A DNA stretch of 59,852 bases from Rhodospirillaceae bacterium (GTDB lineage: Bacteria; Pseudomonadota; Alphaproteobacteria; GCA-2746255), in the NCBI GenBank assembly GCA_002746255.1, contig NVWO01000001.1, forward strand, positions 340,788 to 400,639. Direction: 5' to 3'. Shown in pieces: positions 7,963 through 41,842 of this stretch. Numbering within the stretch: the stretch's first letter is position 1; each line of letters opens with the position of its first letter. Below the pieces are notes generated by a model, which searched no databases, was not told where the DNA came from, and was given only the letters and a program-made list of their open reading frames with translations. A program made the position numbers and the translations under genes.

Positions 7963-7984
7963 ACGCGTGGGTTCGGATACGGCC

Positions 7985-9286
7985 ATGAAACCTGATTTAA
8001 TTGGCACCGAGCTGCATCATGTGGCTAAGGAACTATTTCCGATTTGCCGCAGCATTACGGGGGGTGGTGTGCGCCAGACGCTGGATGTGTTGGGCCGCCG
8101 CTTTCGACCGTTTGAAGTTTCCGAAGTGTCGTCAGGAACACAGTGCTTCGATTGGACGGTTCCCGATGAGTGGAACATCCGTGGCGCGCGTCTGATCGGA
8201 CCCGATGGTTCTACCGTCGTTGATTTTCAGGAAAATAATTTGCATGTGCTTGGCTATTCAGAGCCAATCGATATTGAAATTGAACTTGATGAATTGCAGC
8301 AACACCTGCATTCAATCGAGGCGCTTCCCGATGCGATCCCGTACGTTACCAGTTACTACAACAGAAATTGGGGGTTTTGCCTTCCCCATAGGCAGCGGAA
8401 GCAACTGTCTAAAGGCAAATACCGCGCCATAATCGACAGCACATTGGCCCCCGGCGCGATGACCCTTGGCGAATACATCCTTCCAGGGGAAAGCGCCGAT
8501 GAGGTCCTGATTTCGTCTTATATATGCCACCCATCCATGGCAAATAACGAATTATCGGGGCCAATTGTGGCAAGCGCCATCGGCCGTTGGCTGGGTGAAA
8601 AAAAGCGTCGGTTTACATATCGCATCGCTCTCTTCCCGGAAACAATTGGTGCGATCGTCTATTTGCATCGCAATTTGGAGCAATTGAAGCAGCGTCTGAT
8701 CGCCGGTTTTCATCTTTCCTGTATTGGGGATGATCGCGCCTATTCGTTTGTTGCCACGCCGAATGCGGATACATTTGCGGATCGCGTGGCAAGGCATGTC
8801 TATCAATCCATTGATTCGAGAGCGATTGAGTATGATTTCCTTGATCGTGGCAGCGATGAACGACAGTTCTGTGCGCCCAATGTTGCTTTGCCGGTTGTAA
8901 CCTTAATGCGCTCGCGGTTTGGCAGCTTTCCAGAATATCATACCTCGCTTGACGATCTGAGCCTGGTGACACCAAGTGGTTTGGAGGGTGGCTTCCAGGC
9001 GGTAAAACGGTGCATCGAGTCAATTGAAGCGAACTGTGTTCCACGGGCTACTGGTATTGGCGAGCCACAGCTCAGGAATTATGGGCTGCGTTCCGATACC
9101 TCTGCTCGTGATCTTGACGATTATTTTCATCTTGTCAGCGATGTCCTTGCCTTTGCGGATGGCCGCCAAGACTTGCTTGGCCTAAGCGATCGTATTCGGC
9201 GGCCCATATGGGAGGTGATTCCGGTGATTGAACGTCTGGAATCCCATGGCCTCGTTGAACGTTTGCCGGTCGAGACGGCGGGTTGA
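7985..9286 (+). CDS. DUF4910/DUF2172 aminopeptidase-like protein with C-terminal winged helix
   Basis: 433 residues from ATG 7985. An upstream in-frame start at 7907 would overlap the ABC gene by 56 bases and add an unlikely N-terminus. LFPICRSITGGGVRQTL at the start, SSYICHPSMANNELSG in the middle and RGSDERQFCAPNVALP then EYHTSLDD towards the end match the zinc-aminopeptidase-like fold called DUF4910/DUF2172. A winged-helix-like tail follows (residues about 370-430). Members often sit in polysaccharide clusters, but their substrate is not known to me. An Asn stands where M28 peptidases often have a metal-bridging Asp. Hydrolysis of an amide on a sugar intermediate is possible, not shown. 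Confidence 0.75.
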   Translation: MKPDLIGTELHHVAKELFPICRSITGGGVRQTLDVLGRRFRPFEVSEVSSGTQCFDWTVPDEWNIRGARLIGPDGSTVVDFQENNLHVLGYSEPIDIEIELDELQQHLHSIEALPDAIPYVTSYYNRNWGFCLPHRQRKQLSKGKYRAIIDSTLAPGAMTLGEYILPGESADEVLISSYICHPSMANNELSGPIVASAIGRWLGEKKRRFTYRIALFPETIGAIVYLHRNLEQLKQRLIAGFHLSCIGDDRAYSFVATPNADTFADRVARHVYQSIDSRAIEYDFLDRGSDERQFCAPNVALPVVTLMRSRFGSFPEYHTSLDDLSLVTPSGLEGGFQAVKRCIESIEANCVPRATGIGEPQLRNYGLRSDTSARDLDDYFHLVSDVLAFADGRQDLLGLSDRIRRPIWEVIPVIERLESHGLVERLPVETAG

Positions 9287-9293
9287 AGGCGCG

Positions 9294-10292
9294 ATGACTG
9301 GAGGCAATAGGGACGGCATGGGGGACGTTATCCAGGTTTACGTTGGGACCGATCGTTCGCAGGTGCTGGCGGTTGATGTTCTGGCTTATTCAATTCGCCG
9401 TCATACAAAGCAGGCTGTCGAAATTCACTCGATGCTTGATCTCGATATTCCGGCGCCACGGGATATCCGGCAAGGGCAACGCACAGGGTTTTCATTCGCC
9501 AGGTGGGCAATTCCCGAACTTGCCAGCCATCGTGGACGGGCGATCTACGTGGATGCCGATATGCTGGTTTTTCGCGATATCGGCGATCTGTGGAACGTGC
9601 CGATGGGGGGCGCTAAAATTGCTGTGCTGGAACCGCATCGCAAAATCGGCCGTAACGTTCGCGTCAATCATAATGAAACTTCTGTGATGGTGCTTGATTG
9701 TGCCCGCTGCGATTGGACGCTTCGGGGGCTGGTCGCCGGGTTGGGTGAAGCCTATGACTATCAGCAGATGATGTCGGGCCTTTGCTTTCTCGACGACCGC
9801 GATATTGCCCGGACAATTCCCGCAGACTGGAACCGGCTGGAATATTACGCATCAACAACCGGTCTGTTGCATTACACGCTTACCCCAACCCAGCCCTGGG
9901 TGTCGGCGCGCAACCCTCTCGCGCATTTCTGGATTGATGAGGTCCGGCGCATGATTGCAGATGGGGTTCTTGGAATTTCAAAGATAAAAGAGGAAATTGA
10001 TCTTGGTTATTTTCGACCGTCCCTAGTGGTAGAAATAGAAGATGGGGCGATCAACCCCGAAGATGATCAGCAGATCGCACGGCTTGAAAAAATAGACCGG
10101 GAAGCGGGGTATATCCCACACCGCGTATTGCATGAATTTGACAAAAAGCGGGCCGCTGCCACGGCTGTATATGAACGCCAATTGGCACGTGACAAAGGCC
10201 TGCTATCCTATGCCCGCTGTGTGGGAAGTGAAATATTCTGGGCAAGTCGGAACAGGGCAGCTGCCTTGAAGCGCCGTGTATTTGACAGCTAA
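9294..10292 (+). CDS. GT8-like glycosyltransferase
   Basis: 332 residues from ATG 9294. ATG 9318 (MGDVIQVYVGTDRSQ), 14 bases after a GGAGG, is an equally good start. VYVGTD at the start of the domain, ARWAIPEL and YVDADMLVFRDI with the DxD metal motif indicate a GT-A fold related to family 8 glycosyltransferases. The C-terminal third (after about residue 230) contains no further recognised motif. The gene follows the DUF4910 gene by 7 bases and precedes asnB by 15, in the same operon. Donor and acceptor are unknown. Confidence 0.72.
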   Translation: MTGGNRDGMGDVIQVYVGTDRSQVLAVDVLAYSIRRHTKQAVEIHSMLDLDIPAPRDIRQGQRTGFSFARWAIPELASHRGRAIYVDADMLVFRDIGDLWNVPMGGAKIAVLEPHRKIGRNVRVNHNETSVMVLDCARCDWTLRGLVAGLGEAYDYQQMMSGLCFLDDRDIARTIPADWNRLEYYASTTGLLHYTLTPTQPWVSARNPLAHFWIDEVRRMIADGVLGISKIKEEIDLGYFRPSLVVEIEDGAINPEDDQQIARLEKIDREAGYIPHRVLHEFDKKRAAATAVYERQLARDKGLLSYARCVGSEIFWASRNRAAALKRRVFDS

Positions 10293-10307
10293 AGAACAAT
10301 AACGCGT

Positions 10308-12239
10308 ATGTGTGGTATTGCCGGTTTTCTCCGTAGCGACCTGGGCCCTGCCCAGGAATACTCCAGAGAGTTTGACGCGATGGTTGATTTGGTCGCAGAT
10401 CGGGGGCCAGACACGCGAGGTGTCTGGATTGAAAATAACGTCGCACTTGGCCACCGGCGGCTGTCCATTCTTGATGTCAGCGATGCAGGTCGCCAGCCAA
10501 TGCAAAGTGGCTGTGGCCGTTACCTCATTGCTTTTAATGGCGAAATTTATAATTTTCCAGAATTGCGCAAACGGTTTCTCGACCCTGCCGGGGTTGTCCT
10601 TAAATCCACCACCGATACGGAAGTATTGCTGGAAGTTCTGGCCTGCCTTGGGCCAGAGCGCGCGCTTCCACATATCAATGGCATGTTTGCTTTTGCCCTA
10701 TGGGACCGGCGTGAAAGAAAACTTCATCTGGCGCGTGACCGAATGGGAATTAAGCCGCTTTATTGGGCGCGGCGCGGAAATTTTACCCTCTTTGCCTCGC
10801 AGCTTAAAAGCTTTGCCGCGCATCCTGCTTGGACGAAAGAACTTTCGGGCGTCGGCATTTGGGATTTTCTACAGCATACAAATATCGGCGAAGGCCGAAC
10901 GGTGTTTGCCGAATGCTGGAAGGTAGAGCCGGGGCAGCATTTAATCATTGGGAACGACGGCCAGGTTGAAAAACACAATTTCTTCGACCTGGCGGCCATG
11001 GCACAAACCTGCAAGGAACGGGCAGGGGCATGGGGAAGCTACGAAGAAGCCGTGGATGCGCTGGACGCGACCCTGCAACAGGTCGTGCGCGACCAGTCGC
11101 GTGCGGATGTGCCGTTGGGGGCGTTTTTATCCGGCGGCGTCGATTCGTCTTTGGTGGTGGCGATGTTACGGCAGGACCGTCCGGTGCACAGTTTCTCAAT
11201 TGGATATGAAGAACCGGAATATGATGAAAGCGGAGACGCCCGGGCGATTGCCAGCCATCTTGGAACGGAGCATACGGAGTTTATTCTTACCCCCAAACAT
11301 GCGGCCGAGGTTATTCCGGATCTTCCCTCTATTTATGACGAGCCTTTTGCCGATCCGTCGCAAATCCCAACCCTGCTTGTTTCCAGGCTTGCGCGTGGTT
11401 CGGTTACCGTGGCGTTGTCCGGGGACGGAGGGGATGAATTGTTCGCTGGCTATGAGCGCTATGAGCAGAGCGTAAACATGTGGCGTGCAACAGAACATGT
11501 GCCGAAATGGCTTCGAGGCCCAATGGCTTGTGGGATCCGTGCGGTGCCACCGGCGCTTTGGAAGGCGCTGCTGCGGCCTTTTCTGGCGGATGCCAGCCGC
11601 AGCATGCCCTATTACGCAGATTTGTTGCGTGATCCAGGCATTGCAGCATATAGCGCGCGGGCAAATTACCTTGGGATAGGCCCGGCATGCGCGATGGCGC
11701 AGAATTATGCGGACGAAACTGAGCGGTTGTTCCGCACGGCTCCGGACATGGCAACCCCGCTTGATTCTTTGTTATATGTCGATCAGCGTCGCCGCCTGCC
11801 GGACTCGATGCTTACCAAGGTTGATCGTGCGAGCATGTCGGCAAGCTTGGAGGTCCGTGTGCCACTGCTGGACAACCGGGTGCTTGAATTTGCCTGGTCT
11901 GTTCCCCGTGATTTTTTAATCAGAGATGGTCGCCGGAAATCCTTGCTACGCGATGTTCTGGGCCGGTACGTGCCGCCACCTTTGTTTGAACATCCTAAAA
12001 AAGGATTTCATATGCCAATCAAGCTTTGGCTTGGCGGTGCGTTGCGGGAATGGGCCGAAAGCCTTTTATCGGATCGTCTAAAGACCGTTTCAGAATTTCT
12101 GGATCCGTCTGTCGTGCATGACATGTGGCGGCGTTATTTGAATGGCGAAAAGGACCTAACGCATCCAATGTGGGTTATTTTGATGTTTCTTGCCTGGCAC
12201 GAGAAGCAGAATATTTCCCCGTCAGGGCGGGCTGGATAA
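10308..12239 (+). CDS. asnB: asparagine synthetase B-type amidotransferase
   Basis: 643 residues starting MCGIAGF, so Cys2 is the glutaminase nucleophile after Met removal. The class II glutaminase domain covers about residues 1-210, with RRLSILD and FNGEIYN. The ATP-pyrophosphatase domain has SGGVDSSLVV near residue 274 and SGDGGDELFAGYERY further on. In central metabolism it makes asparagine. In glycan clusters homologues (WbpS/WbmE-like) are thought to amidate uronic or nonulosonic carboxyl groups. Its place between glycosyltransferase and methyltransferase genes favours sugar amidation, but sequence alone does not decide. Confidence 0.85.
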   Translation: MCGIAGFLRSDLGPAQEYSREFDAMVDLVADRGPDTRGVWIENNVALGHRRLSILDVSDAGRQPMQSGCGRYLIAFNGEIYNFPELRKRFLDPAGVVLKSTTDTEVLLEVLACLGPERALPHINGMFAFALWDRRERKLHLARDRMGIKPLYWARRGNFTLFASQLKSFAAHPAWTKELSGVGIWDFLQHTNIGEGRTVFAECWKVEPGQHLIIGNDGQVEKHNFFDLAAMAQTCKERAGAWGSYEEAVDALDATLQQVVRDQSRADVPLGAFLSGGVDSSLVVAMLRQDRPVHSFSIGYEEPEYDESGDARAIASHLGTEHTEFILTPKHAAEVIPDLPSIYDEPFADPSQIPTLLVSRLARGSVTVALSGDGGDELFAGYERYEQSVNMWRATEHVPKWLRGPMACGIRAVPPALWKALLRPFLADASRSMPYYADLLRDPGIAAYSARANYLGIGPACAMAQNYADETERLFRTAPDMATPLDSLLYVDQRRRLPDSMLTKVDRASMSASLEVRVPLLDNRVLEFAWSVPRDFLIRDGRRKSLLRDVLGRYVPPPLFEHPKKGFHMPIKLWLGGALREWAESLLSDRLKTVSEFLDPSVVHDMWRRYLNGEKDLTHPMWVILMFLAWHEKQNISPSGRAG

Positions 12240-25113: not shown

Positions 25114-25440
25114 ATGAAGCATCTTGTTTTGGTTCTAAGCGACCCCACCGAAGGGCAGGAAGAAGAATACGACCGCTGGTATGAAGACCTTCATCTGGAC
25201 GAGGTGCTGGCCACGACAAATTGGAAAAGTGCGCAGCGTTTCGTTCTTAAGGACCAGTTGTGGAATAAAAGCGCCCACAACTATCTTGCGATGTACGAGG
25301 TCGAGGCGGACGATCCCAAGGACGTGTTGCGTCAGCTAAACGCAACGCGCACCAAGCGTCAGCAGAGCACGTCCATCGATATAGACAAGACGGCCGTCTG
25401 GGTGTTTTCCGAGACCGGCCCCAAGCACGAGAAGCCGTAG
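25114..25440 (+). CDS. small EthD/Dabb-like conserved protein
   Basis: 108 residues with AAAAAGGAGG 9 bases before ATG. KHLVLVLSDPTEGQEEEYDRWYED at the start and YLAMYEVEADDPKDVLRQL later fit the ferredoxin-like dimeric alpha/beta barrel seen in EthD and Dabb domain proteins, where DxWYxxxH-like motifs occur. No catalytic function can be assigned. It lies 85 bases after typA and convergent to the old yellow enzyme gene. Alternative: an uncharacterised DUF of the same fold. Confidence 0.65.
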   Translation: MKHLVLVLSDPTEGQEEEYDRWYEDLHLDEVLATTNWKSAQRFVLKDQLWNKSAHNYLAMYEVEADDPKDVLRQLNATRTKRQQSTSIDIDKTAVWVFSETGPKHEKP

Positions 25441-31012: not shown

Positions 31013-31102
31013 TCATACTTGAGGCATCCTAGCCAGTGCAATTGCAATGATCGCATCGCTCCGGTTCTGCGGGGTGGCGACAAAGGGGGAGAGTAACGTT
31101 CG

Positions 31103-31372
31103 ATGTCATTGAAAAAGAAAATTTCCGTGAAGAGTGCTGTTGTTTTAAGCGCGACAGTTCTTCTGGCGGGTGCCATGGCAATGGCCAGTCCTGCCGCTGC
31201 GGGAAATAACCCGTGTGCGGCGAAAAACCCGTGTGCGGCGAAAAATCCGTGTGCGGCGAAAAATCCGTGTGCGGCGAAAAATCCGTGTGCGGCGAAAAAC
31301 CCATGTGCGGCGAAAAACCCATGTGCGGCGAAAAACCCATGTGCAGCGAAAAACCCATGTGCAGCGAAATAG
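31103..31372 (+). CDS. secreted protein with nine perfect NPCAAK repeats
   Basis: 89 residues with GGGGGAGAG before ATG. A basic start and hydrophobic stretch (KKKISVKSAVVLSATVLLAG) followed by SPAAA-GN predicts a Sec signal peptide. Everything after residue 35 is nine copies of Asn-Pro-Cys-Ala-Ala-Lys. Nine evenly spaced cysteines and lysines suggest metal or copper binding, thiol modification or surface interaction in the periplasm; none is shown. Synonymous codon variants occur in blocks along the array while the peptide is unchanged. A strong terminator follows. The frame is open on other strands too, but only this one has signal, start and terminator. Confidence 0.8.
   Translation: MSLKKKISVKSAVVLSATVLLAGAMAMASPAAAGNNPCAAKNPCAAKNPCAAKNPCAAKNPCAAKNPCAAKNPCAAKNPCAAKNPCAAK
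31208..31369 (+). repeat. nine tandem 18-base repeats
   Basis: Units of 18 bases encode NPCAAK. Units 1-2 read AACCCG, 3-5 AATCCG, 6-7 AACCCA with GCG, 8-9 AACCCA with GCA at the alanine codon. All differences are silent. The block pattern is what successive duplication of neighbouring units after mutation would leave. Confidence 0.95.
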
Positions 31373-31400
31373 CGGCTAAAATACGTGTCTTCGCATGAAG

Positions 31401-31436
31401 AAAAAGGGCGTCGAAACATTCGGCGCCCTTTTTTGT
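31401..31436. terminator. intrinsic terminator, probably bidirectional
   Basis: AAAAAGGGCG (31401-31410) pairs perfectly with CGCCCTTTTT (31424-31433) around a 13-base loop, followed by further T residues. It lies 29 bases after the repeat-protein stop and 18 bases from the end of the convergent DUF924 gene, and the A-tract makes it usable on both strands. Confidence 0.88.
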
Positions 31437-31453
31437 TCTTCCCTGTGCTTTCG

Positions 31454-32026
31454 TCAAAAGCCGGAATCCGGCCTTTTCAAGAACGCCAATTCTTCCTTCG
31501 TGCTTTTCCGTCCCAAGATTGAATTGCGGTGGGGAAAGCGACCGAAACGCTCAATAATTTCAGCATGCCTCTTTGCATAGTCCAATGAGGTGGCGTTTCC
31601 GTTTGCCTCGAAAAGGGCGATGCATTTCTGCTGGTCCGCTGGGTTTTCGCTATGCATGTAAGGAAGATAGAAAAAGCTGCGTTCGACGGGAGGGAGCGCT
31701 TGATCGAAGCCGTTTTCAAGCGCCTGTTCGGCCGTTGCTCGCGCCTTTCCATCCGTGGCAAAGGCGCGGGCCGTATCACGGAAGAGGTTGCGGGGGAACT
31801 GGTCGAGGAGGAGGATGAGGGCAAGCGCCCCACGGGCCGTTTTCGAGAACTCGTCACGCTTGCCGGCAGCGGCCAGTTTCGTGTCGTTCAGGAACTGCCC
31901 GCGGATTTCCTGATCGAAGCCAGGGTCCGGTCGGTACCATAACTTCCGTGCCGTCGCCTGGCCGGCGGCGTCCTTCTCGGAGAACCAGAAATCAAGGATT
32001 TCTTCGACCCGCTTGCCCACTTCCAT
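31454..32026 (-). CDS. DUF924 family protein
   Basis: 190 residues from ATG 32026, with AGAGG upstream; an extension to 32146 adds 40 unrelated residues and overlaps the divergent gene. VEEILDFWFSE, LILLLDQFPRNLFRDTARAFA, RSFFYLPYMHSENPADQQ and FGRFPHRNSILGR are the DUF924 signatures. The protein is all alpha, TPR-like, cytoplasmic and of unknown role across bacteria and eukaryotes. Divergent from the general stress-like gene. Confidence 0.92.
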   Translation of the reverse strand: MEVGKRVEEILDFWFSEKDAAGQATARKLWYRPDPGFDQEIRGQFLNDTKLAAAGKRDEFSKTARGALALILLLDQFPRNLFRDTARAFATDGKARATAEQALENGFDQALPPVERSFFYLPYMHSENPADQQKCIALFEANGNATSLDYAKRHAEIIERFGRFPHRNSILGRKSTKEELAFLKRPDSGF

Positions 32027-32133: not shown

Positions 32134-32694
32134 ATGACAGGTTCAAGCGAAGTTGTAAGCGAAGCCATCGGTGTTTTTCACTCCGTTGAATGCCTGGAAT
32201 CGGCGGTTGAGGACCTGCAGGACGCCGGGTTCAACCGGTCGGAGTTAAGCCTGCTGGCCCATGACGAGGTCGTCGAGAAAAAGTTCGGTCATGTTTATAA
32301 GAAGGCCGAGGACGCGGCTGACGATCCCGAGGCTCCGCGCACCGCGTGGGTTTCGAGAGATTCGGTCGAAGTGGGGGAAGCAGCCCTGGTCGGGGCCCCC
32401 CTCTTTGTCGCAGCCCTTGTCGCGGGTGGCGCCGTCGTCGCGACGGGAGGCGCCCTTTTACCTGCGGCCGGCGCGGCGCTGGCAGCCGGTGGTTTGGCCG
32501 GGACCTTCGGAGGGCTTGTGGCGGGGGAGATTGGCCAGGAACACGCCACGCATTATGAGCAGCAGCTTGCACGTGGCGGAATTTTGCTTTGGGTCCATCT
32601 GCGATCCCCAAAGGATGAACAGAAAGCCATCACCATCCTGAAAAAGAACCAGGCGGATCACGTGCGTGTGCATGAAATCGCCGCCAGCGCGTAA
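32134..32694 (+). CDS. general stress protein-like membrane-associated protein
   Basis: 186 residues. The first 60 have VFHSVECLESAVEDLQDAGF and ELSLLAHDE, resembling the alpha/beta general stress protein 17M (YflT-like) domain. The middle (residues about 84-132) is a long glycine- and alanine-rich hydrophobic stretch that can span the membrane like a glycine-zipper. The last 50 form another alpha/beta part (GGILLWVHLRSPKDEQKAITIL). Proteins of this layout are thought to respond to envelope or osmotic stress, without a known activity. Confidence 0.7.
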   Translation: MTGSSEVVSEAIGVFHSVECLESAVEDLQDAGFNRSELSLLAHDEVVEKKFGHVYKKAEDAADDPEAPRTAWVSRDSVEVGEAALVGAPLFVAALVAGGAVVATGGALLPAAGAALAAGGLAGTFGGLVAGEIGQEHATHYEQQLARGGILLWVHLRSPKDEQKAITILKKNQADHVRVHEIAASA

Positions 32695-32814
32695 CGTTCT
32701 TCACACCGTCGTAAATCGGGAGGTTTGGAAAACGGTTGAGCAGGGCTGGGACGCTGGCTATGCTTTGTTCCGTTGGATGTCCCATCGGCAAGATAGGCGG
32801 AAAACGCAGGTGCG

Positions 32815-32853
32815 AAAATAAAAAACGAAAGAAAAATAAAAGAAAAACAAAAA
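32815..32853 (+). other. A-rich leader before the carboxylase operon
   Basis: About 40 bases made almost only of A and scattered G, T or C, in an otherwise GC-balanced region, 36 bases before the first carboxylase gene. It may be an unstructured 5' leader, a promoter UP-like element or an RNA-chaperone site. No clear -35/-10 pair was found in the 194-base gap. Confidence 0.35.
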
Positions 32854-32888
32854 GCAAGTAAGGGTCTGTCTGGGGGGAAGCCGGTTTT

Positions 32889-34832
32889 ATGGGGTTGCTC
32901 ATCAATGTCGACAATGGCGGCACGCTAACGGATGTATGCGTTGTTGATGGGCCGGATGTCTACCACGCGAAAACGCTGACGACCCCTTACAATCTAAGCA
33001 AATGCTTTTTTGAAGTCCTGAAGGAAGCATCAAAACAAATCTACGGCGAAGCACGGCTTGATAAGCTTTTAAACAATGCTGAAAGCATTCGTTACTCAAC
33101 GACCCAGGGTACGAACGCCGTTGTCCAAAAAATTGGCCCACGCCTTGGTCTGATCCTGCGCAAGGGAAAGACGGCCGCTTTTCTCCGCAAAACCGAATCC
33201 GAAGTTCAGATGTTCGACGTGCTTGTTGGCGACCGTCTGGCGACCCTTGATTGCAAGCTGAAAGGCGAGGATCTGGAGGAGATGGTTGTGGGCGAGGTCA
33301 ATCGCCTTATCTCGAAGGGCGCGAACCGGGTGGTGGTCAGCTTTGGCGGGGCGAACATGGTCAGGGACGAGACGCGCATCAAGCGCATCCTCCTGCAACG
33401 CTATCCGCGTCACCTTCTTGGTGCCGTGCCCGTCCTTTTCTCCCACGAACTTATCGACGATGGGGACGACCGACGCCGGACCTGGACCGGGCTTCTGAAC
33501 TCCTTTCTTCATCCGGCGATGGAACGCTTTCTCTACAACGCAGAGAACCGGCTTCGCGACCATCGAACGAAGAATCCGATGTTAATTTTCCGCAACGACG
33601 GAAACTCGACTCGAATTGCAAAAACCATTGCGCTGAAAAGTTATGGTTCCGGGCCCCGTGGCGGTATGGAGGGTGCATGCGCCCTTATGCATCATTACGG
33701 AATTAAAATGGGCGTCACGATGGACATCGGTGGCACAACGACGGACATCGGCCTTGTTGAAAAGGGGGCTATTCGAGAAAAGCGTCGTGGCAAAGTCGAA
33801 GAAATCCCTGTTTCCTTTCCGTTGAGCGATCTCGTCAGCATTGGCGTTGGCGGCGGTTCGATTTTCCGCGCCAAGGGAAAAACCATCGCCGTCGGCCCGG
33901 AAAGCGTCGGCGCGGCACCCGGCCCGGCCTGCTTTGGCCGCGGCGGTCAGGAGGCAACCAGCACGGATGCCTATCTTCTGATGGGCATTCTGGACCCGGC
34001 CTCCTATTTTGGCGGCGGTTTTTGCCTGGACGTGGATCGTGCGCGCGCCGTTATCGATGGAAAAATAGCAGACCCCCTGGGCAAAAATCTGGATGCGGCC
34101 CTGCTAGCCATGGACCGCGTCTATGAGGAAAAGATCGCAAAGGCGATCGCGCGTTATGTGAAGAAGCCAGCCGCGACGACGTTGCTGGCATTTGGCGGTG
34201 CGGGCCCCATGAATGCCTGCGGCATTGCTGAGCGTGTCGGCATACGGGAAGTCCTGATCCCCCGGATGGCGTCGGTCTTCAGCGCCTTTGGCATTGGTTT
34301 TAGCGACATCGCGCATTCTTACGAAGTGGCTCTATCAAAAGTGACGAATGCCGATTTGAAGGCAGTTTCTTCGAACCTTATGGAACGTGCCAAGCGCGAC
34401 ATGTTTTCCGAGGGCATCGACATCGCGCGATGCAAACGCGCATTTGCGCTGGAATATTCCCTAAAGGGTGCGGAAATCCGAAAGCCGCTTGCCAATTCAC
34501 CGCGTCTGCCAAAAAACATGAAGGGAGCGAAAGACGTACGTTTGCATCTACGCCTTTCAAAGGCGGTCCCCCATTGTGATTTGAAGAAGGCGAAAGGCAA
34601 GAAGACGTTTGCGGCAAAACGGGACGGTACCCGTCGAATTCTGTCCGCTTCGGGCATAAGAGAGGACGTCCCCGTCTATCGTCTGGAAAAATTACGTCCC
34701 ATGATGACAGCGGAAGGACCCGCAATTTTAGAGGAAGCCTTTTTCACCTGTCGGGTGAAAGAGGGTTGGACCATGGATGTGAATGAAAACCACGACGTTT
34801 TTCTACGCCGCACAGGAGGTCGCTCAACATGA
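32889..34832 (+). CDS. ketone carboxylase HyuA-like subunit (first)
   Basis: 647 residues (about 71 kDa) of the hydantoinase A/oxoprolinase family, with an ASKHA-type ATP fold. N-terminal nucleotide motif VDNGGTLTDVCVVDG (the usual Ile is Asn), YSTTQGTNAVVQ, DIGGTTTDIGLVEKG, GVGGGSI and LAFGGAGPMNACGIAE are seen. In acetone and acetophenone carboxylases such subunits phosphorylate bicarbonate and/or the enol of the ketone. The closest match in operon layout is the 70-kDa subunit of acetophenone carboxylase (from memory). The stop overlaps the next ATG. Confidence 0.85.
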   Translation: MGLLINVDNGGTLTDVCVVDGPDVYHAKTLTTPYNLSKCFFEVLKEASKQIYGEARLDKLLNNAESIRYSTTQGTNAVVQKIGPRLGLILRKGKTAAFLRKTESEVQMFDVLVGDRLATLDCKLKGEDLEEMVVGEVNRLISKGANRVVVSFGGANMVRDETRIKRILLQRYPRHLLGAVPVLFSHELIDDGDDRRRTWTGLLNSFLHPAMERFLYNAENRLRDHRTKNPMLIFRNDGNSTRIAKTIALKSYGSGPRGGMEGACALMHHYGIKMGVTMDIGGTTTDIGLVEKGAIREKRRGKVEEIPVSFPLSDLVSIGVGGGSIFRAKGKTIAVGPESVGAAPGPACFGRGGQEATSTDAYLLMGILDPASYFGGGFCLDVDRARAVIDGKIADPLGKNLDAALLAMDRVYEEKIAKAIARYVKKPAATTLLAFGGAGPMNACGIAERVGIREVLIPRMASVFSAFGIGFSDIAHSYEVALSKVTNADLKAVSSNLMERAKRDMFSEGIDIARCKRAFALEYSLKGAEIRKPLANSPRLPKNMKGAKDVRLHLRLSKAVPHCDLKKAKGKKTFAAKRDGTRRILSASGIREDVPVYRLEKLRPMMTAEGPAILEEAFFTCRVKEGWTMDVNENHDVFLRRTGGRST

Positions 34833-35245
34833 TAATTCCAATGACGGAATATTTGGCGATTGATCTGGAAACCGAAAAATGGCTTTGCCGACGCTGCGAT
34901 CACGTCATCGGGTCGGCGCGCAAGAATTACAAGGAAGGGTTGCTGGTTTACGATCGTAATCCTAGGGAAATTCACCGGCCGATCCTTGATGAGAAGCATT
35001 ACGAATTTACCTACGCGCCGGATCCGAAATGGGTCCGGATTCTTGAATATTATTGCCCGAGTTGCGGTGTGATGATGGAGGCGGAATACACGCCTCCGGG
35101 GCACCCGCCAATCCACGATATGGAATTCGACATTGACGCCTTGAAAGCGCAATGGAAGGCGCGTCCCAAGGGGGCGGCGCCGAATTTGGGTCCGGATACC
35201 TCGCCAAGGGATGAAGGGCATCACGGCCACGGCGCGGAGAAATAA
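34829..35245 (+). CDS. small zinc-binding carboxylase subunit (Apc2/acetone carboxylase gamma-like)
   Basis: 138 residues (about 15 kDa), ATG overlapping the preceding stop (ATGA). CRRCDHVIGSA (residues about 20-30) and YYCPSCGVMMEAEY (about 72-85) give two C-x2-C pairs able to hold one zinc. The NYKEGLLVYDR and PRE segments resemble the acetone carboxylase gamma family. In the acetophenone carboxylase core the small subunit carries zinc. A His-rich tail (HHGHGAEK) closes the protein. Its presence, with its partners, marks the operon as a carboxylase rather than a hydantoinase. Confidence 0.82.
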   Translation: MIIPMTEYLAIDLETEKWLCRRCDHVIGSARKNYKEGLLVYDRNPREIHRPILDEKHYEFTYAPDPKWVRILEYYCPSCGVMMEAEYTPPGHPPIHDMEFDIDALKAQWKARPKGAAPNLGPDTSPRDEGHHGHGAEK

Positions 35246-35250
35246 GGACG

Positions 35251-37392
35251 ATGCGTAGGGTTTCTGTCGACATCGGGGGAACGTTTACGGACTGCTTTCT
35301 TGTCTGGGACGGCGAATACATTGAAGCAAAGGCGCTGACGACCCATGAAAATCTGGCGCTTGGCTTCATGGAGGCGCTGGAGAAGGCCTATACGCGCCTT
35401 GGGCTTGATCTGGACACGGTGCTGTCCAAGGTTGATTCCGTTCGTTACGCGACGACCCTTGGCACGAACGCCCTGATCCAGCGCAAGGGGCCGAAAGTGG
35501 GCCTGCTGGTGACCGCCGGTTTTGAAAGCACGGTGCCGTTGAGCCGCGGTCGCGGCTATGGGGAAGGGCTTGATTTTCTACACCAGGCCGATTTGGCGAA
35601 CGCCCAACGGCCGGAGCCCCTGGTGCCGGTGCCGATGATCGCCGGTGTGCGTGAGCGCATCGACTACAAGGGAAAAATTGTCTTTCCCCTGGACGAGACG
35701 GACCTTCGCCATCAGATACGCCGGCTTGTGGACCGTGGCGCACAGGCCTTCGTCGTTGCCTTCATCAATTCCGTCGTCAATTCGGAGCACGAGCGTCGGG
35801 CGCAGGAAATCCTGCTTGAGGAATATCCCTCGCACATGCTGGGGTCGATGCCGGTTATCCTCTCCCACCTGGTTGCGGGACGGAAAGGCGAATATGTGCG
35901 TACGTCTTCCTGCATTATGGATGCTTTCCTTCACGAGGAAATGTATTTCGGGCTGAGTTCGCTTGAGATGAGCCTGCGCGAGCACGGCTATATGAAGCCG
36001 ATGCTTGTGATCCATAATTCCGGCGGCATGGCGCAGTTGAATTCGACCGATGCGCTTCAGACAATTCATTCCGGCCCGGTTGCCGGCATCGCCGCTTCCG
36101 AGCATCTGGCCGAGGAAATGGACCTGGGCGACATTGTCTGCACGGACATGGGCGGGACCAGTTTCGATATCGGGATCGTCGTTCGTGGTGGCATCAAGCA
36201 TTATGACTTCAATCCGGTGATCGACCGCTGGCTGGTCAGTGTGCCGATGGTGCATCTTGTAACCTTGGGGGCAGGGGGTGGTTCCGTTGCTCGTTATGAG
36301 CGGATGTACAACACCGTGCAGGTGGGGCCGAAAAGCGCGGGTTCGGACCCGGGGCCTGCCTGCTACGACCGTGGTGGCATGGACCCGACCGTGACGGACG
36401 CCGATCTGGTGCTCGGCTATCTGGATGCGGACAATTATGCCGGTGGCAGCATCAAGTTGAACCGCAAGCGTTCGGAATTTGCTATTCGCGAAGCCTTGTG
36501 CGAGCCGCTGGGCATTTCCGTCATTGAGGCCGCAAAACTTATCAAGCAGCGCGTCGATAACAACATGGTCAACGGCATGGCCCAGGAGCTTCGCGCGCGC
36601 GGGTACGACCCGCGTCGGTTCACGATGCTGGCCTATGGCGGCAATGGACCGCTTCACAGCTGTGGCATTGCCAGCATGCTGGGGATCGACAAGATTCTAG
36701 CACCACCCTTTACGGCTGTTTTTTCGGCTGTCGGGGCCGGCAACATGCACCAGATGCATATTCACGAACGTTCCCTTTTCATGAATATCTACAACTCGAA
36801 CACGCGCCACCTGTTCGACGATTACGATGCCTTTAACCGCACCGTCGAAGAGCTGGAAGTGCTTGGTAGGCAGGATCTTCTACGTCAGGAAATGAAGCGC
36901 GAGGACATTCATCACCGGCTTGAGCTGGACATGCGTTATGGCAATCAGCTTGTTACGACGACCGTGGTGGCGAACGTCTCGCGTTTGAATAACATTGAAG
37001 ACGTGATGTCGATCATCAATCAGTTTTCGGCCGATTACGGAAAACGGTTTGGCGAGGGCAGTCAGGCGCCGGAGGCGGGCATTCGTATCAACACCGTGCG
37101 CGTGTCTTCCTTTGTCGAACTGGATACCGTGCATTTCAAACATGTTCGTTTCGAAGAAGCGGACAGGAAAAAAATAGCGGCGCCGAAACCGGTTGCGCGG
37201 CGGGAATGCCATTTCCCGGGCCATGCGAGTGGGCTGGAAACGGCGATTTATAAGGCAGAGCAGTTTGAACCGGGGATGGTGATCGAGGCCCCGGCCGTCG
37301 TGATCGCGCCGACGACGACATATCTTGTCGAACCCGGCTGGCGTCTGACGGCAAGCGAGCAGGGTGCCATCTGGCTTACCCGGGTGAAATAG
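35251..37392 (+). CDS. ketone carboxylase HyuA-like subunit (second)
   Basis: 713 residues (about 78 kDa). Canonical VDIGGTFTDCFLVWDG at residues 5-20, YATTLGTNALIQRKGPKVGLL, DMGGTSFDIGIVVRGG, LGAGGGSVARYE, and YGGNGPLHSCGIASMLG. Its motifs are closer to the hydantoinase A consensus than those of the first subunit, so the pair has probably split roles, as in the alpha/alpha-prime pair of acetophenone carboxylase. Starts 5 bases after the zinc-subunit stop. A C-terminal beta-rich part follows residue 520. Confidence 0.87.
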   Translation: MRRVSVDIGGTFTDCFLVWDGEYIEAKALTTHENLALGFMEALEKAYTRLGLDLDTVLSKVDSVRYATTLGTNALIQRKGPKVGLLVTAGFESTVPLSRGRGYGEGLDFLHQADLANAQRPEPLVPVPMIAGVRERIDYKGKIVFPLDETDLRHQIRRLVDRGAQAFVVAFINSVVNSEHERRAQEILLEEYPSHMLGSMPVILSHLVAGRKGEYVRTSSCIMDAFLHEEMYFGLSSLEMSLREHGYMKPMLVIHNSGGMAQLNSTDALQTIHSGPVAGIAASEHLAEEMDLGDIVCTDMGGTSFDIGIVVRGGIKHYDFNPVIDRWLVSVPMVHLVTLGAGGGSVARYERMYNTVQVGPKSAGSDPGPACYDRGGMDPTVTDADLVLGYLDADNYAGGSIKLNRKRSEFAIREALCEPLGISVIEAAKLIKQRVDNNMVNGMAQELRARGYDPRRFTMLAYGGNGPLHSCGIASMLGIDKILAPPFTAVFSAVGAGNMHQMHIHERSLFMNIYNSNTRHLFDDYDAFNRTVEELEVLGRQDLLRQEMKREDIHHRLELDMRYGNQLVTTTVVANVSRLNNIEDVMSIINQFSADYGKRFGEGSQAPEAGIRINTVRVSSFVELDTVHFKHVRFEEADRKKIAAPKPVARRECHFPGHASGLETAIYKAEQFEPGMVIEAPAVVIAPTTTYLVEPGWRLTASEQGAIWLTRVK

Positions 37393-37422
37393 AGGTCGCT
37401 CTCTGAGAGCAGGGATAGAACA

Positions 37423-39786
37423 ATGAACAAGCAAGTGAAACCGGATACGCCGTCACGCGAAGAGGAATTGATCTCGGAATTCCTTGAGAAGACGACGCTG
37501 TTTCTGGGTCCGGATCCGGAAATTATGGCGGATCACGATATTTCACCACGCACGGCCCATGAGGAACGCGCCGTGAACGCGGTTACGGACGACGCACTGC
37601 TGGCGGTTGTGCGCGACCGCATGCAGGTCGCGGCGAACGAATGCTATGAAATGCTTGAACAGATGGGGGCGGCCCCGGGCGCAAAATGGGGCGACCTCAT
37701 TAGCGGTATTTATACGGCAAGTGGCGATCTGGCCATTACCAGCACCGGCGGTGTCCTGGTTTTTTCCGCCCTGGTGCATCATCCGATCAAGTTCATCTGC
37801 AAATATTGGACAAAGGACCCGACGGTCGGCGTGCGTGAAGGGGATGGCTTCATCCACAACGATGCCCGCTATGGGAACATTCACAACACCGATCAAAGCA
37901 TGCTTCTGCCCATCTTTCACGAGGGCGAATTGATCGCATGGGCCGGTGCGACTGTCCACGAAGGTGAGAATGGCGCGATTGAGCCTGGCGGCATGCCGTC
38001 GCTTGCCGAATCGCCCTATGACGAAGGGCTGAAGATGTCGCCTTTCAAGGTGGTCGAGAATTTTCAGCTAAAGAAAGACCTCGTCACCTTTCTGCAGAAT
38101 TCCGTGCGCGAGCCGAAGCTGCAATACGAAGATATGAAAGTAAAACTTTTTTGCTGCCGCCGTATCGAACAGCGGATCAAGGAAGCGATTGCGGAATATG
38201 GGATCGAGCCGGTCATCGCGGCCTTGCGGCGCAACATGGAAGACCCAAAAGAAGAGGTCAAAAAACGAATTCGGGAATGGCCGGATGGAACGGTGCGGGC
38301 AATCTCTTATGCTGACAGCACGCTTCGCGAAAATCTGATCGTGAAGATCAACCTCGAAGTGCGGAAGGAAGGGGAAAAGTTGATTCTCGATTTCCGGGGG
38401 TCGAGCCCGGAATTCCTGAACCGCGCTAACAATACCGTGGTGTCTTCCTTGAAGGGCATGCTGGCGCAGCTGTTTCTGACATTTGTCTGGCCGGACCTGC
38501 CGCGAAACCAGGCGGTGTTTGCACCCATCGATATCATCGTCGATCCGCGATCGACATTGAACTCGTCTTACGAAGTGCCAAATGCCGAAAGCATGATGAC
38601 CTTCTTTCCGGCGTTCTCCGCTGCGCAGCTGGCGGTGGCGAAATTTCTTTATAGTTCGCCCTTCAAGGCAACGCGGGTGATCGCGCCCTGGTACAACATG
38701 ATCAACACCTTCATCTATGGCGGCACCACCCAGCATGGCGAGATGGTTGGCAATTTATGCGCGGATCTAAACGGCATGGGCGGTGGCGCACGCATTGACC
38801 GTGATGGCGAAAACGCCATTGCGCCCATCTTTGCGACGATGTCGGACATCGGCGAACAGGAACTGAATGAAGAAGAGGTGCCGTTTATTCAGTTGGTTTC
38901 GAAGAAGCTGATGCGCGACAATCAGGGTTTTGGAAAATTCCGGGGCGGCATGGGTTACGAGATGATGGCGGCGACGCGGGGCAGTCCCTTCTGGGGATTT
39001 ATGGTCTGCTGCATCGGTTCAAAAATGCCGAATGTGCAAGGGCTGTTCGGAGGCTATGGCTGCGCGACCTATCCGCTTTGCAAGGTGAAAGGAACGAACA
39101 CTTACGAGATCATGGCAAGCGATCCGGAAAAGTTCGACTTTTCCATCGAAAGCGTCATGAACAAGCGTCGCTTTAAGGGGGCCAGCTACAGCACTCATCA
39201 CATGGGCTTGCAGTTCGAACTGGCGCAGGAAGGCGAACTTTACATGATTACCCAGGGGTCCGGGGGCGGTTACGGCGATGTGCTGGAGCGCGACCCCGAC
39301 CTGGTCATCAAGGATGTCGAGGCGGATTATATTTCCGACCACACGGCGAGAAAAATCTACCACGTCGTTTATGACTCCGAGACGCTGGCGATCGACGTTG
39401 CGGCGACGGAGAAGGCGCGCGAAAAGGAACGCGCGGCGCGCAAGAAACGCGGTGTGCCCTTCAAAAAATTCATCAAAAAATGGTCGAAAAAAGAACCGCC
39501 TGCGCACCTGCCTTATTATGGCTGCTGGGGTCCGGACCGGAGCGTGATTTACGGCGGCTCGGCGGATGTGAAGATGTCTGCAGATGCAATACAGCCAATC
39601 ATGATGCCGAACCCAAAGGACGTGCGTATTTCCGAGCTGGAAACGCAACTCGCCAAACTTGAGCGCAAGGTGCAGCGCGCGGAAGCGCCGAAAAAGGCCA
39701 AACGGGCCAAGCCAAAAGCCAAGGCGAAAGCCAAGGCAAAGGCAAAGGCAAAGGGGAAGAAGCCGAAAGGAAGATGGGCAAAGTGA
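37423..39786 (+). CDS. ketone carboxylase HyuB-like subunit with Lys/Ala-rich tail
   Basis: 787 residues (about 87 kDa) of the hydantoinase B family: GDLAITSTGGVLVFSALVHHP, FIHNDARYGNIHNTDQS, GATVHEGENGAIEPGG, and GSGGGYGDVLERDPDLV. This subunit carries the carboxylation site in acetone carboxylase. After the domain, residues about 725-760 look like a short coiled coil (ISELETQLAKLERKVQ), and the last 30 residues are almost only Lys, Ala, Pro and Gly. I do not know this tail from acetone or acetophenone carboxylases. It overlaps the next gene by 13 bases. Confidence 0.87.
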   Translation: MNKQVKPDTPSREEELISEFLEKTTLFLGPDPEIMADHDISPRTAHEERAVNAVTDDALLAVVRDRMQVAANECYEMLEQMGAAPGAKWGDLISGIYTASGDLAITSTGGVLVFSALVHHPIKFICKYWTKDPTVGVREGDGFIHNDARYGNIHNTDQSMLLPIFHEGELIAWAGATVHEGENGAIEPGGMPSLAESPYDEGLKMSPFKVVENFQLKKDLVTFLQNSVREPKLQYEDMKVKLFCCRRIEQRIKEAIAEYGIEPVIAALRRNMEDPKEEVKKRIREWPDGTVRAISYADSTLRENLIVKINLEVRKEGEKLILDFRGSSPEFLNRANNTVVSSLKGMLAQLFLTFVWPDLPRNQAVFAPIDIIVDPRSTLNSSYEVPNAESMMTFFPAFSAAQLAVAKFLYSSPFKATRVIAPWYNMINTFIYGGTTQHGEMVGNLCADLNGMGGGARIDRDGENAIAPIFATMSDIGEQELNEEEVPFIQLVSKKLMRDNQGFGKFRGGMGYEMMAATRGSPFWGFMVCCIGSKMPNVQGLFGGYGCATYPLCKVKGTNTYEIMASDPEKFDFSIESVMNKRRFKGASYSTHHMGLQFELAQEGELYMITQGSGGGYGDVLERDPDLVIKDVEADYISDHTARKIYHVVYDSETLAIDVAATEKAREKERAARKKRGVPFKKFIKKWSKKEPPAHLPYYGCWGPDRSVIYGGSADVKMSADAIQPIMMPNPKDVRISELETQLAKLERKVQRAEAPKKAKRAKPKAKAKAKAKAKAKGKKPKGRWAK

Positions 39787-40640
39787 GTGCTGCGCTCGCC
39801 GAAGCTTTGAGCGGAAAGCTCTGGATTGATTCGCTTGCTTATGGAAAACGGCTTTTCCTGAACCCGGACGAAGACCCCTGGGCCGACCCTACCCGTTTTG
39901 TGTGGTTGGTGGGGCAGGGGCAGGCGCTTCTTGGTTCGGATGTCCTCGGCCTGAGGCTGGAGGATGCCTATGGCGCGTTGCTTGCCCGGCAACCGGACGT
40001 CCTTGGCGAGGCGGCGGGCCGCAGTGCCGGTGCCATCCTTCGGGCCCTTTTTCGCGAGGAGACGGAAAGGGCGCGGATCGGTGAAATTCTTACCGCCCTT
40101 CGCGGCACCTATCGGGAATTGCCCCTTGTCCTTCAGATGCCATCGCCATCGGCCTGGGTGGAATGGGTCTGGGGCCTTGGCCTTGGCAAACCCCCAGGAA
40201 AATCCGCAAAGACACCGGACACGGACGAAATCGAGGCCGTCGCCATGTACCTTGCGGACATGCTGCGCGCCTTTGCCGATTGCGGCGTTGACGGCATTTT
40301 GTTGCGGGAAAATTCAGGGGAGGGGCTTGGCGAACGCTTTTCCCTCTACCAGCCGGTCGTAAACGTCGCCCATCACTATCGCTGGTCTTTGGGATTGGAC
40401 GTTCCGGGAAAGGGGGGTGGCGGCGATCTGCCACAGGCGGATTCCGGGCTGGATTTATGCATCCTTGACGCCAAGGCTACGTCGAAGGCGGACATGCCAC
40501 TTGGGCTTCGGGTTCCGTTGGGTTATTGGAAGGCCGGCAAGACGCCGCCACCCATGGGCGCCTGCGGCTTTCGCTTTGCGGAGATTCCGGCGGATGGTGT
40601 GCCTGAAACCGTGCTTACCCAGGTAAAGGCGCTACGTTAA
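39774..40640 (+). CDS. fifth protein of the carboxylase operon, unknown fold
   Basis: 288 residues (about 31 kDa), ATG overlapping the HyuB stop by 13 bases. LPLVLQMPSPSAWVEWVWG and YLADMLRAFADCGVDGILLREN suggest a TIM-barrel-like protein, with a distant look of the uroporphyrinogen decarboxylase/methionine synthase group, but no catalytic motif is certain. Its position and size match Apc5, the separate fifth component required by acetophenone carboxylase (size from memory, about 34 kDa). Homology to Apc5 is not tested here. Confidence 0.6.
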   Translation: MGKVSAALAEALSGKLWIDSLAYGKRLFLNPDEDPWADPTRFVWLVGQGQALLGSDVLGLRLEDAYGALLARQPDVLGEAAGRSAGAILRALFREETERARIGEILTALRGTYRELPLVLQMPSPSAWVEWVWGLGLGKPPGKSAKTPDTDEIEAVAMYLADMLRAFADCGVDGILLRENSGEGLGERFSLYQPVVNVAHHYRWSLGLDVPGKGGGGDLPQADSGLDLCILDAKATSKADMPLGLRVPLGYWKAGKTPPPMGACGFRFAEIPADGVPETVLTQVKALR

Positions 40641-40687
40641 GGGAGAAATCGCCAGCTTTTTCTTTCGCCGTTGAAGCGGCCTTTGCG

Positions 40688-41842
40688 TTAGGCGTGGGCT
40701 GCTTTTTTTACCGCCGCCGTGATGCGGTCCTGGGTTTTGGTCTCTAGATAAGGGTGCATGGGAAGGCTCAGCACTTCCTTGGCGAGACGCTCGGCAACCG
40801 GCAGATTTTTTACCCGCGGGAAGGCGTCATAGGCCGCCTGCAGGTGAAGTGGTTTTGGATAATAAATCGCGGTCGGGATGCCTTGCGCGCGCAGTTCCGA
40901 AGACATGGCTTCCCGATTTAATCCTTTAAGCCGGATTGTGTATTGCGCCCAGGCGGAGGTGCGGTCGCCTTGTACCATGGGCGTAATAACGGTCTCGGAA
41001 AGGGCTTCGGAATAGCGCTGTGCAACTTGGTTGCGCGTTTCAATCTCATCCTGAAAAATCGCAAGTTTTGGAAGCAGGATTGCCGCCTGAAGCGTATCAA
41101 GGCGGCTGTTCATACCAATTCGTGTGTAGTCATATTGTGCTGTGCCAATGCCATGGACATGGATCGCGCGCAGAATGTCGGCCGTCGCGTCGTCATCGGT
41201 AAACAGCATCCCGCCATCGCCATAACAGCCCAAAGGCTTTGCTGGGAAAAAGCTGGTCGTTGTGATTGGCGCCAGAGTGCCGACGCGTTTGCCGTGCAGG
41301 GTTGCGCCGAAGGATTGGGCGGCGTCTGCGATGACAACCATGCCATGTTCGGCGGCAACGGCGTGGATGGCTTCGTAATCCGCCGGCTGGCCGAAAAGAT
41401 CGACGGCGATGATGGCGGCAGGGCGGAGCCCATTTTTTTTTGCGGTTTCGATGGCCTCTGCGAGCTGGGCTACGTCAAGATTGAAATTGTCCTCGGCGAT
41501 ATCGACAAAAACGGGGGTTGCGCCCAGAAGGGCTGGCGCCTCCGCCGTTGCAGCAAAGGTGAATGTCGGAACGAAAACGGCATCCTTCTGTCCAATGCCA
41601 GATGCCATCAGGGCAAGGGACAGGGCGTCCGTTCCATTCGCACAGGCGATTGCATGTCTGGCACCTGCGAATTCTGCGGCTTTTGTTTCAAACTCGGCGA
41701 CCTCCGGGCCCAGGACAAATTTTCCATGGTGCAGGACCTTTGCGATGGCGGCGTCAAGTTTATCGCGCAACCGGTCGCGTTGCGCCTTCAGGTCGATAAA
41801 AGGAATTGGTTCGGAATTTGATTGGGCAGATAAGGCAGTCAT
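40688..41842 (-). CDS. DegT/DnrJ/EryC1 family sugar aminotransferase (WbpE-like)
   Basis: 384 residues from ATG 41842; an extension to 41926 would overlap the preceding gene and includes an 8-base tandem repeat. IPFIDLKAQRDRL, HHGKFVLGPEVAEFE, CANGTDALSLAL, VDLFGQPADYE, ADAAQSFGA and SFFPAKPLGCYGDGG are seen; the Lys of the last motif holds PLP. Similarity is to WbpE-type enzymes that aminate UDP-3-keto-GlcNAc uronic acids or 4-keto sugars. A TviB-like dehydrogenase in the facing operon could supply a uronic acid substrate (inference). Confidence 0.88.
   Translation of the reverse strand: MTALSAQSNSEPIPFIDLKAQRDRLRDKLDAAIAKVLHHGKFVLGPEVAEFETKAAEFAGARHAIACANGTDALSLALMASGIGQKDAVFVPTFTFAATAEAPALLGATPVFVDIAEDNFNLDVAQLAEAIETAKKNGLRPAAIIAVDLFGQPADYEAIHAVAAEHGMVVIADAAQSFGATLHGKRVGTLAPITTTSFFPAKPLGCYGDGGMLFTDDDATADILRAIHVHGIGTAQYDYTRIGMNSRLDTLQAAILLPKLAIFQDEIETRNQVAQRYSEALSETVITPMVQGDRTSAWAQYTIRLKGLNREAMSSELRAQGIPTAIYYPKPLHLQAAYDAFPRVKNLPVAERLAKEVLSLPMHPYLETKTQDRITAAVKKAAHA

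Follow-up and report, generated by a model that had tools for sequence, protein, structure and literature searches.

Based on gene order, family placement, conserved motifs and a predicted protein fold, we propose that a five-gene operon of an alphaproteobacterium (Rhodospirillaceae bacterium, contig NVWO01000001.1) specifies a biotin-independent, ATP-dependent ketone carboxylase of the acetophenone carboxylase (Apc) type, an identification that we hold with considerable confidence. The operon is a member of a known enzyme kind, and belongs to a clade for which we found neither a characterised member nor biochemistry for any member in the open literature searched. The evidence supports the placement in this family well, and the likely chemistry too. 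The substrate is probably not acetophenone but another ketone.

Organization of the operon

The five open reading frames occupy positions 32889-40640 on the forward strand of the analysed stretch of 59,852 nucleotides (hereafter the window), and all are intact. Together with a tract in the leader they comprise the following features:

32813-32857 (+), A-rich tract in the leader, partly conserved, 34 A of 45
32889-34832 (+), alpha' subunit, ApcA-like, HyuA/ASKHA fold, proposed bicarbonate kinase; 647 aa, 70.7 kDa (PF05378 and PF01968, 5L9W alpha', tree, ATP motifs)
34829-35245 (+), gamma subunit, ApcB-like, four-Cys zinc protein; 138 aa, 16.0 kDa (PF08882, 5L9W gamma, Cys20/23/76/79)
35251-37392 (+), alpha subunit, ApcC-like, proposed ketone kinase; 713 aa, 78.8 kDa (5L9W alpha, RERIDYKG motif, pocket)
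37423-39786 (+), beta subunit, ApcD-like, HyuB, metal site, Lys/Ala-rich C-terminal tail; 787 aa, 87.7 kDa (PF02538, 5L9W beta, ligands)
39774-40640 (+), epsilon subunit, ApcE-like, UroD-type fold; 288 aa, 30.8 kDa (AlphaFold2 model, 9FOU match)

The computed masses lie close to the approximately 71, 15, 78, 87 and 31 kDa estimated in the initial annotation, which had taken the locus for a five-gene enzyme of the acetophenone carboxylase type rather than a three-subunit acetone carboxylase (Acx); gene order, best PDB matches, trees and motifs all bear this out. The spacing is operon-like, with a 4 bp overlap between the first and second genes, gaps of 5 bp and 30 bp at the next two junctions, and a 13 bp overlap between the fourth and fifth. 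The order alpha'-gamma-alpha-beta-epsilon is that of apcABCDE, as laid out among the diagnostic characters of these enzymes in PMC5214803. We take the five frames to be real genes, as the main domains of the first four match Pfam with E-values of 1e-40 or better and the gene order recurs at most of 80 named loci in other genomes.

Family assignment and phylogeny of the core subunits

The first four genes code for HyuA, acetone-carboxylase-gamma, HyuA and HyuB domains in Pfam, with E-values of 7.4e-41 for gamma against PF08882 and 2.1e-81 for beta against PF02538. In a search of all PDB chains the closest solved structure for all four was 5L9W, the Apc core of Aromatoleum (alpha' 5.5e-92, gamma 7.3e-34, alpha 3.3e-165, beta 6.3e-89), at identities of 34% for alpha', 52% over 108 residues for gamma, 38% for alpha and 31% for beta; the HyuA/HyuB subunits are 25-28% identical to acetone carboxylase and 25-31% to hydantoinase-type enzymes. 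The Apc models are likewise the top matches in NCBIfam. However, scores against the ApcA, ApcB, ApcC and ApcD equivalog models amount to 373.8, 139.7, 580.6 and 341.5 bits against cut-offs of 1250, 250, 1500 and 1500, which, at only 23-56% of the cut-offs, does not justify the name acetophenone carboxylase in its strict sense.

We built trees for alpha/alpha' and for beta, the former from clade members, Apc proteins of two Aromatoleum genomes, and Acx, hydantoinase and caprolactamase references. The window alpha' falls in a group sister to ApcA (support 100/99) and alpha joins ApcC (94/86); the beta tree agrees, with the window protein joining Apc (92/81), the support of the latter two placements being moderate and their branches long. 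Some rows are misassigned or long-branched, and one locus is represented by the same protein in both its alpha' and alpha rows (L079_A and L079_C), its alpha' gene being cut off by a contig end; the position of the window subunits is not affected. In both trees Acx and the hydantoinases lie on separate branches. Thus, the phylogeny of the HyuA-like subunits places the window proteins with Apc, apart from hydantoinases, oxoprolinases and acetone carboxylase. The operon is neither an alpha-beta-gamma-only system branching with Acx nor a two-subunit, gamma-less system branching with the hydantoinases.

The Pfam names HyuA and HyuB, the common kinase chemistry and the matches to caprolactamase profiles, which also appear in NCBIfam, could alternatively be read as pointing to an ATP-dependent cyclic amidase, namely a hydantoinase, oxoprolinase or lactamase. 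We consider this highly improbable: hydantoinase-type enzymes consist of two subunits and lack gamma (PMC5214803), the trees set them apart, and gamma, alpha' and usually epsilon are retained together throughout the clade.

Metal sites, nucleotide-binding motifs and the ketone pocket

The residues expected of an Apc-type enzyme are present across the core subunits. All 72 homologues share the four cysteines of gamma that the initial annotation had pointed out (Cys20, 23, 76 and 79), and the window protein shows the four conserved cysteines and short N-terminus given for Apc gamma subunits (PMC5214803). That annotation had named grouping with hydantoinases or oxoprolinases, or a small protein lacking zinc, as grounds for abandoning its assignment; neither applies, as the trees join the subunits to Apc and gamma retains its zinc cysteines. 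Both alpha and alpha' possess the phosphate and adenosine motifs of ATP binding, with the RERIDYKG motif found in alpha and the RERIDxxG motif absent from alpha', the distribution described for R/KERiDsxG, which marks alpha and not alpha' (PMC5214803). In beta, 74 of 75 rows retain the ligands equivalent to Apc Asp65, His123, Asp126 and His148; the metal ligands of acetone carboxylase are His150, Asp153, His175 and Glu89 (PMC5543143), and in our alignment Acx has E, H, D and H in the four columns. The one departure is in length: at 787 residues the window beta is about 100 residues longer than that of Apc and exceeds the approximately 670-680 residues, shorter than Acx beta, given as typical of the family, a distinction that is approximate according to its authors (PMC5214803). 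Its tail contains a Lys/Ala-rich repeat (window 39670-39783), which was also observed in the beta subunit of one relative (L034) and not in the other relatives examined.

Seven residues have been proposed for the ketone site of Apc alpha (L81, F281, N282, P285, I333, Q344 and T345). At these positions the window alpha reads T, I, H, P, I, H and L, such that five of the seven differ from Apc; the acetone carboxylase residues are L, I, V, P, M, A and M. Each of the window residues is common to 67 or 68 of the 68 clade rows. We considered this invariance as proof of one common substrate; it is weakened by the fact that 48% of alpha columns are invariant within the clade, so the uniformity of the pocket says little, and more weight falls on the five of seven positions at which it departs from Apc. 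Together with the missed equivalog cut-offs, this departure led us to reject acetophenone carboxylase in the strict sense.

A divergent epsilon subunit

The fifth protein has no match in Pfam, NCBIfam or the PDB sequences, a profile search included, and comparison with Aromatoleum ApcE by BLAST, hmmsearch and hhalign gave nothing significant. We therefore turned to a structural model, built with AlphaFold2 from 43 orthologues, which is confident (pLDDT 92.2, pTM 0.91). In a Foldseek search its top PDB match was 9FOU (E 1.4e-8, TM 0.67, 14% identity), the structure of ApcE released on 2025-12-24, followed by uroporphyrinogen decarboxylases and methyltransferases. A URO-D match of one Aromatoleum ApcE, at an E-value of 0.002 and hence below threshold, fits a UroD-type fold. 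Judged by its predicted fold, then, the protein is an ApcE-related epsilon subunit, the component listed for such systems in PMC5214803. An NVA-x-[HF]-[HY]-R-like motif was seen by eye, without statistics, in both epsilon forms.

Relatives and their gene neighborhoods

One scan of GTDB species genomes gave the 80 named loci, whose beta subunits are 59-90% identical. Their hosts belong to the Alpha-, Beta- and Gammaproteobacteria, apart from one record each under the labels Verrucomicrobia, Nitrospinaceae, Geobacteraceae and Stygiobacter; cultured hosts of the clade include Azotobacter vinelandii, Xanthobacter, Aromatoleum diolicum, Novosphingobium naphthalenivorans and Zoogloea. The A-B-C-D order is kept wherever the contig permits, and epsilon is found at 76 of the 87 loci compared. 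Three clade members (L032, L033 and L035) have no epsilon gene after beta; epsilon is also missing from some Apc-like operons described earlier (PMC5214803). At one locus of another alphaproteobacterium (L034; G030 contig C50) an Acx-like beta, a gamma and a possible end of an alpha gene lie directly upstream of the Apc-like operon.

We then examined the gene neighborhoods of the relatives, calling their genes with a codon-usage score and naming each neighboring family from one representative. Across the 80 loci the most frequent neighbors code for sigma-54 activators (40), CobW (29), SCP2-type thiolases (27) and FadD-type AMP-forming CoA ligases (24), followed by enone-reductase-like MDR proteins (21), DUF1302 (20), DUF1329 (16), the A (15) and B (14) subunits of 3-oxoacid CoA-transferase, MMPL (13) and YCF48 (12). 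A gene for a CoA-transferase, CoA ligase or thiolase is near the operon at 40 of the 80 loci, and the figure rises to 66 when sigma-54 activator and CobW genes are counted as well. These neighbors are the setting of a catabolic ketone route, running from a beta-keto acid to a CoA ester and its thiolysis. A copy of rpoN was also observed beside the operon, mostly with a sigma-54 activator, at eight loci (L037, L039, L053, L060, L072, L075, L078 and L100).

The suggestion of the initial annotation that the ketone may be new is favoured by the five differing pocket positions taken together with these neighbors, that is, a FadD-type CoA ligase with a thiolase, or a 3-oxoacid CoA-transferase. It has to be weighed against a true acetophenone or other aryl-alkyl ketone carboxylase yielding products of the benzoylacetate type. 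The subunit set and order are indeed those of Apc, a YCF48-MMPL-DUF1302-DUF1329 group accompanies several relatives, with MMPL-like and YCF48-like genes (judged by sequence) at the Aromatoleum apc locus, and the names of several hosts suggest degraders of aromatics. However, the five pocket residues are unlike Apc in nearly every clade member scored, every Apc equivalog cut-off is missed, the CoA ligase of the relatives is FadD-like while others have 3-oxoacid CoA-transferase, and we recognised no gene of an aromatic pathway next to the window operon; hence, we regard an aryl-alkyl ketone as an unlikely substrate. We lean slightly towards an aliphatic or alicyclic ketone over an aryl one.

Genomic context in the host and its genus

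The operon is flanked by a YflT-like gene upstream and a DegT aminotransferase gene downstream, and the window contains no gene for a sigma-54 activator, CobW, CoA ligase, thiolase or CoA-transferase beside it, nor for any other of the families counted near the relatives. The earlier remark that aromatic and acetone pathway genes are not adjacent accordingly stands locally, but does not extend to the rest of the genome, which encodes thiolases, two CoA-transferase subunits (C22), one of them confirmed as 3-oxoacid CoA-transferase B, and an Acx-like enzyme. This second system (C2:154786-159583; L028 ~6789-11577) has the order beta-gamma-alpha, branches with acetone carboxylase (100/100) and is 39% (alpha) and 32% (beta) identical to Acx. 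Related genes are present in the congeners G001 and G003, and acetone as the substrate of the five-gene operon would thus be redundant. This bears on one choice of substrate within our preferred explanation, in which the enzyme would carboxylate acetone, butanone or a similarly small aliphatic ketone and overlap with acetone carboxylase. The 3-oxoacid CoA-transferase genes beside some 15 relatives, as expected for acetoacetate-like products, and the one in the host genome are in keeping with it, but other relatives have long-chain-type CoA ligases and enone-reductase-like genes, and we view it as a possible if rather doubtful choice.

Within the genus the operon is optional. Congener G003 has it, whereas congener G001 (L161) displays an empty site: in aligned DNA spanning window 32694-40746, about 185 bases separate the YflT-like gene from the DegT gene, and the 7.8 kb operon of the window is missing. 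We found no papers on the MAG series of the sister species in the literature searched. Two further observations concern the wider window: a frame at 31029-31457 (-) codes for short tandem peptide repeats (HMGFSP-like), near which a piece matches genome G002 in both orientations, and a 108-aa protein at 25114-25440 (+), lacking a Pfam match, is 71% identical in G002.

The A-rich tract of the leader, described as striking in the initial annotation, is real, being the most biased stretch of the window and the sole one with at least 27 A or T in 45, yet it is poorly conserved, with only its 3' part kept in G003. A search of the leader for a riboswitch or other RNA gave no Rfam match, and neither a sigma-70 promoter-like site nor a sigma-54 box was found in it; sigma-54 box-like sites occur in 19 of 71 relatives versus 3.5% of random 400-mers.

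Proposed reaction and comparison with known systems

From the above we infer the catalysis, ATP stoichiometry and substrate as follows. By homology with Apc, alpha would convert the ketone to its phosphoenol using one ATP, and alpha' would convert bicarbonate to carboxyphosphate using a second. The beta/gamma core would provide a structural zinc and a divalent metal site, and epsilon, a loosely bound UroD-fold protein, may aid the meeting of the two activated intermediates. The predicted products are a beta-keto acid, two ADP and two phosphate, with the keto acid then presumably activated by a CoA-transferase or CoA ligase and cleaved by a thiolase.

The Apc system of Aromatoleum aromaticum (5L9W core; 9FOU epsilon) shares with the window operon the five genes in the same order, the alpha/alpha' kinase pair, the four-Cys gamma, the HyuB beta with equal metal ligands and the UroD-fold epsilon. 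The window operon differs from it in its core identities of 31-52%, an epsilon of about 14% identity by structure, its pocket, its longer beta and the lack of an adjacent benzoylacetate-CoA ligase gene. Acetone carboxylase (AcxABC; 5SVB, 5M45) has related alpha, beta and gamma subunits and metal ligands at equivalent positions, but lacks alpha' and epsilon, makes AMP and occupies a separate branch. The hydantoinases, 5-oxoprolinases and caprolactamases share the HyuA and HyuB folds and ATP-driven carbonyl activation; unlike the window system they are hydrolases of only two subunits, on a separate branch. The 4-hydroxyacetophenone carboxylase of strain EbN1 is a biotin-type enzyme. By its description in PMC8461187, apkCBA of Rhodococcus GD01/GD02, a putative carboxylase of alkyl-phenyl ketones, is comparable in its proposed ketone carboxylation, but has three genes, which are related to that EbN1 enzyme.

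Implications

As of 2017 only one Apc-type enzyme had been characterised (PMC5214803). We see roughly even chances that the operon, as part of a five-subunit carboxylase subfamily found mainly in Alpha-, Beta- and Gammaproteobacteria, acts on one particular ketone, neither acetone nor acetophenone, and thereby defines an undescribed carboxylation route for it. The presence of the clade in cultured species makes the substrate directly testable. Such an enzyme would add a second ATP-driven, biotin-free C-C carboxylation of the Apc type, and, as the UroD-type fold of epsilon is retained despite very low sequence identity, the clade would help reveal the role of this subunit.
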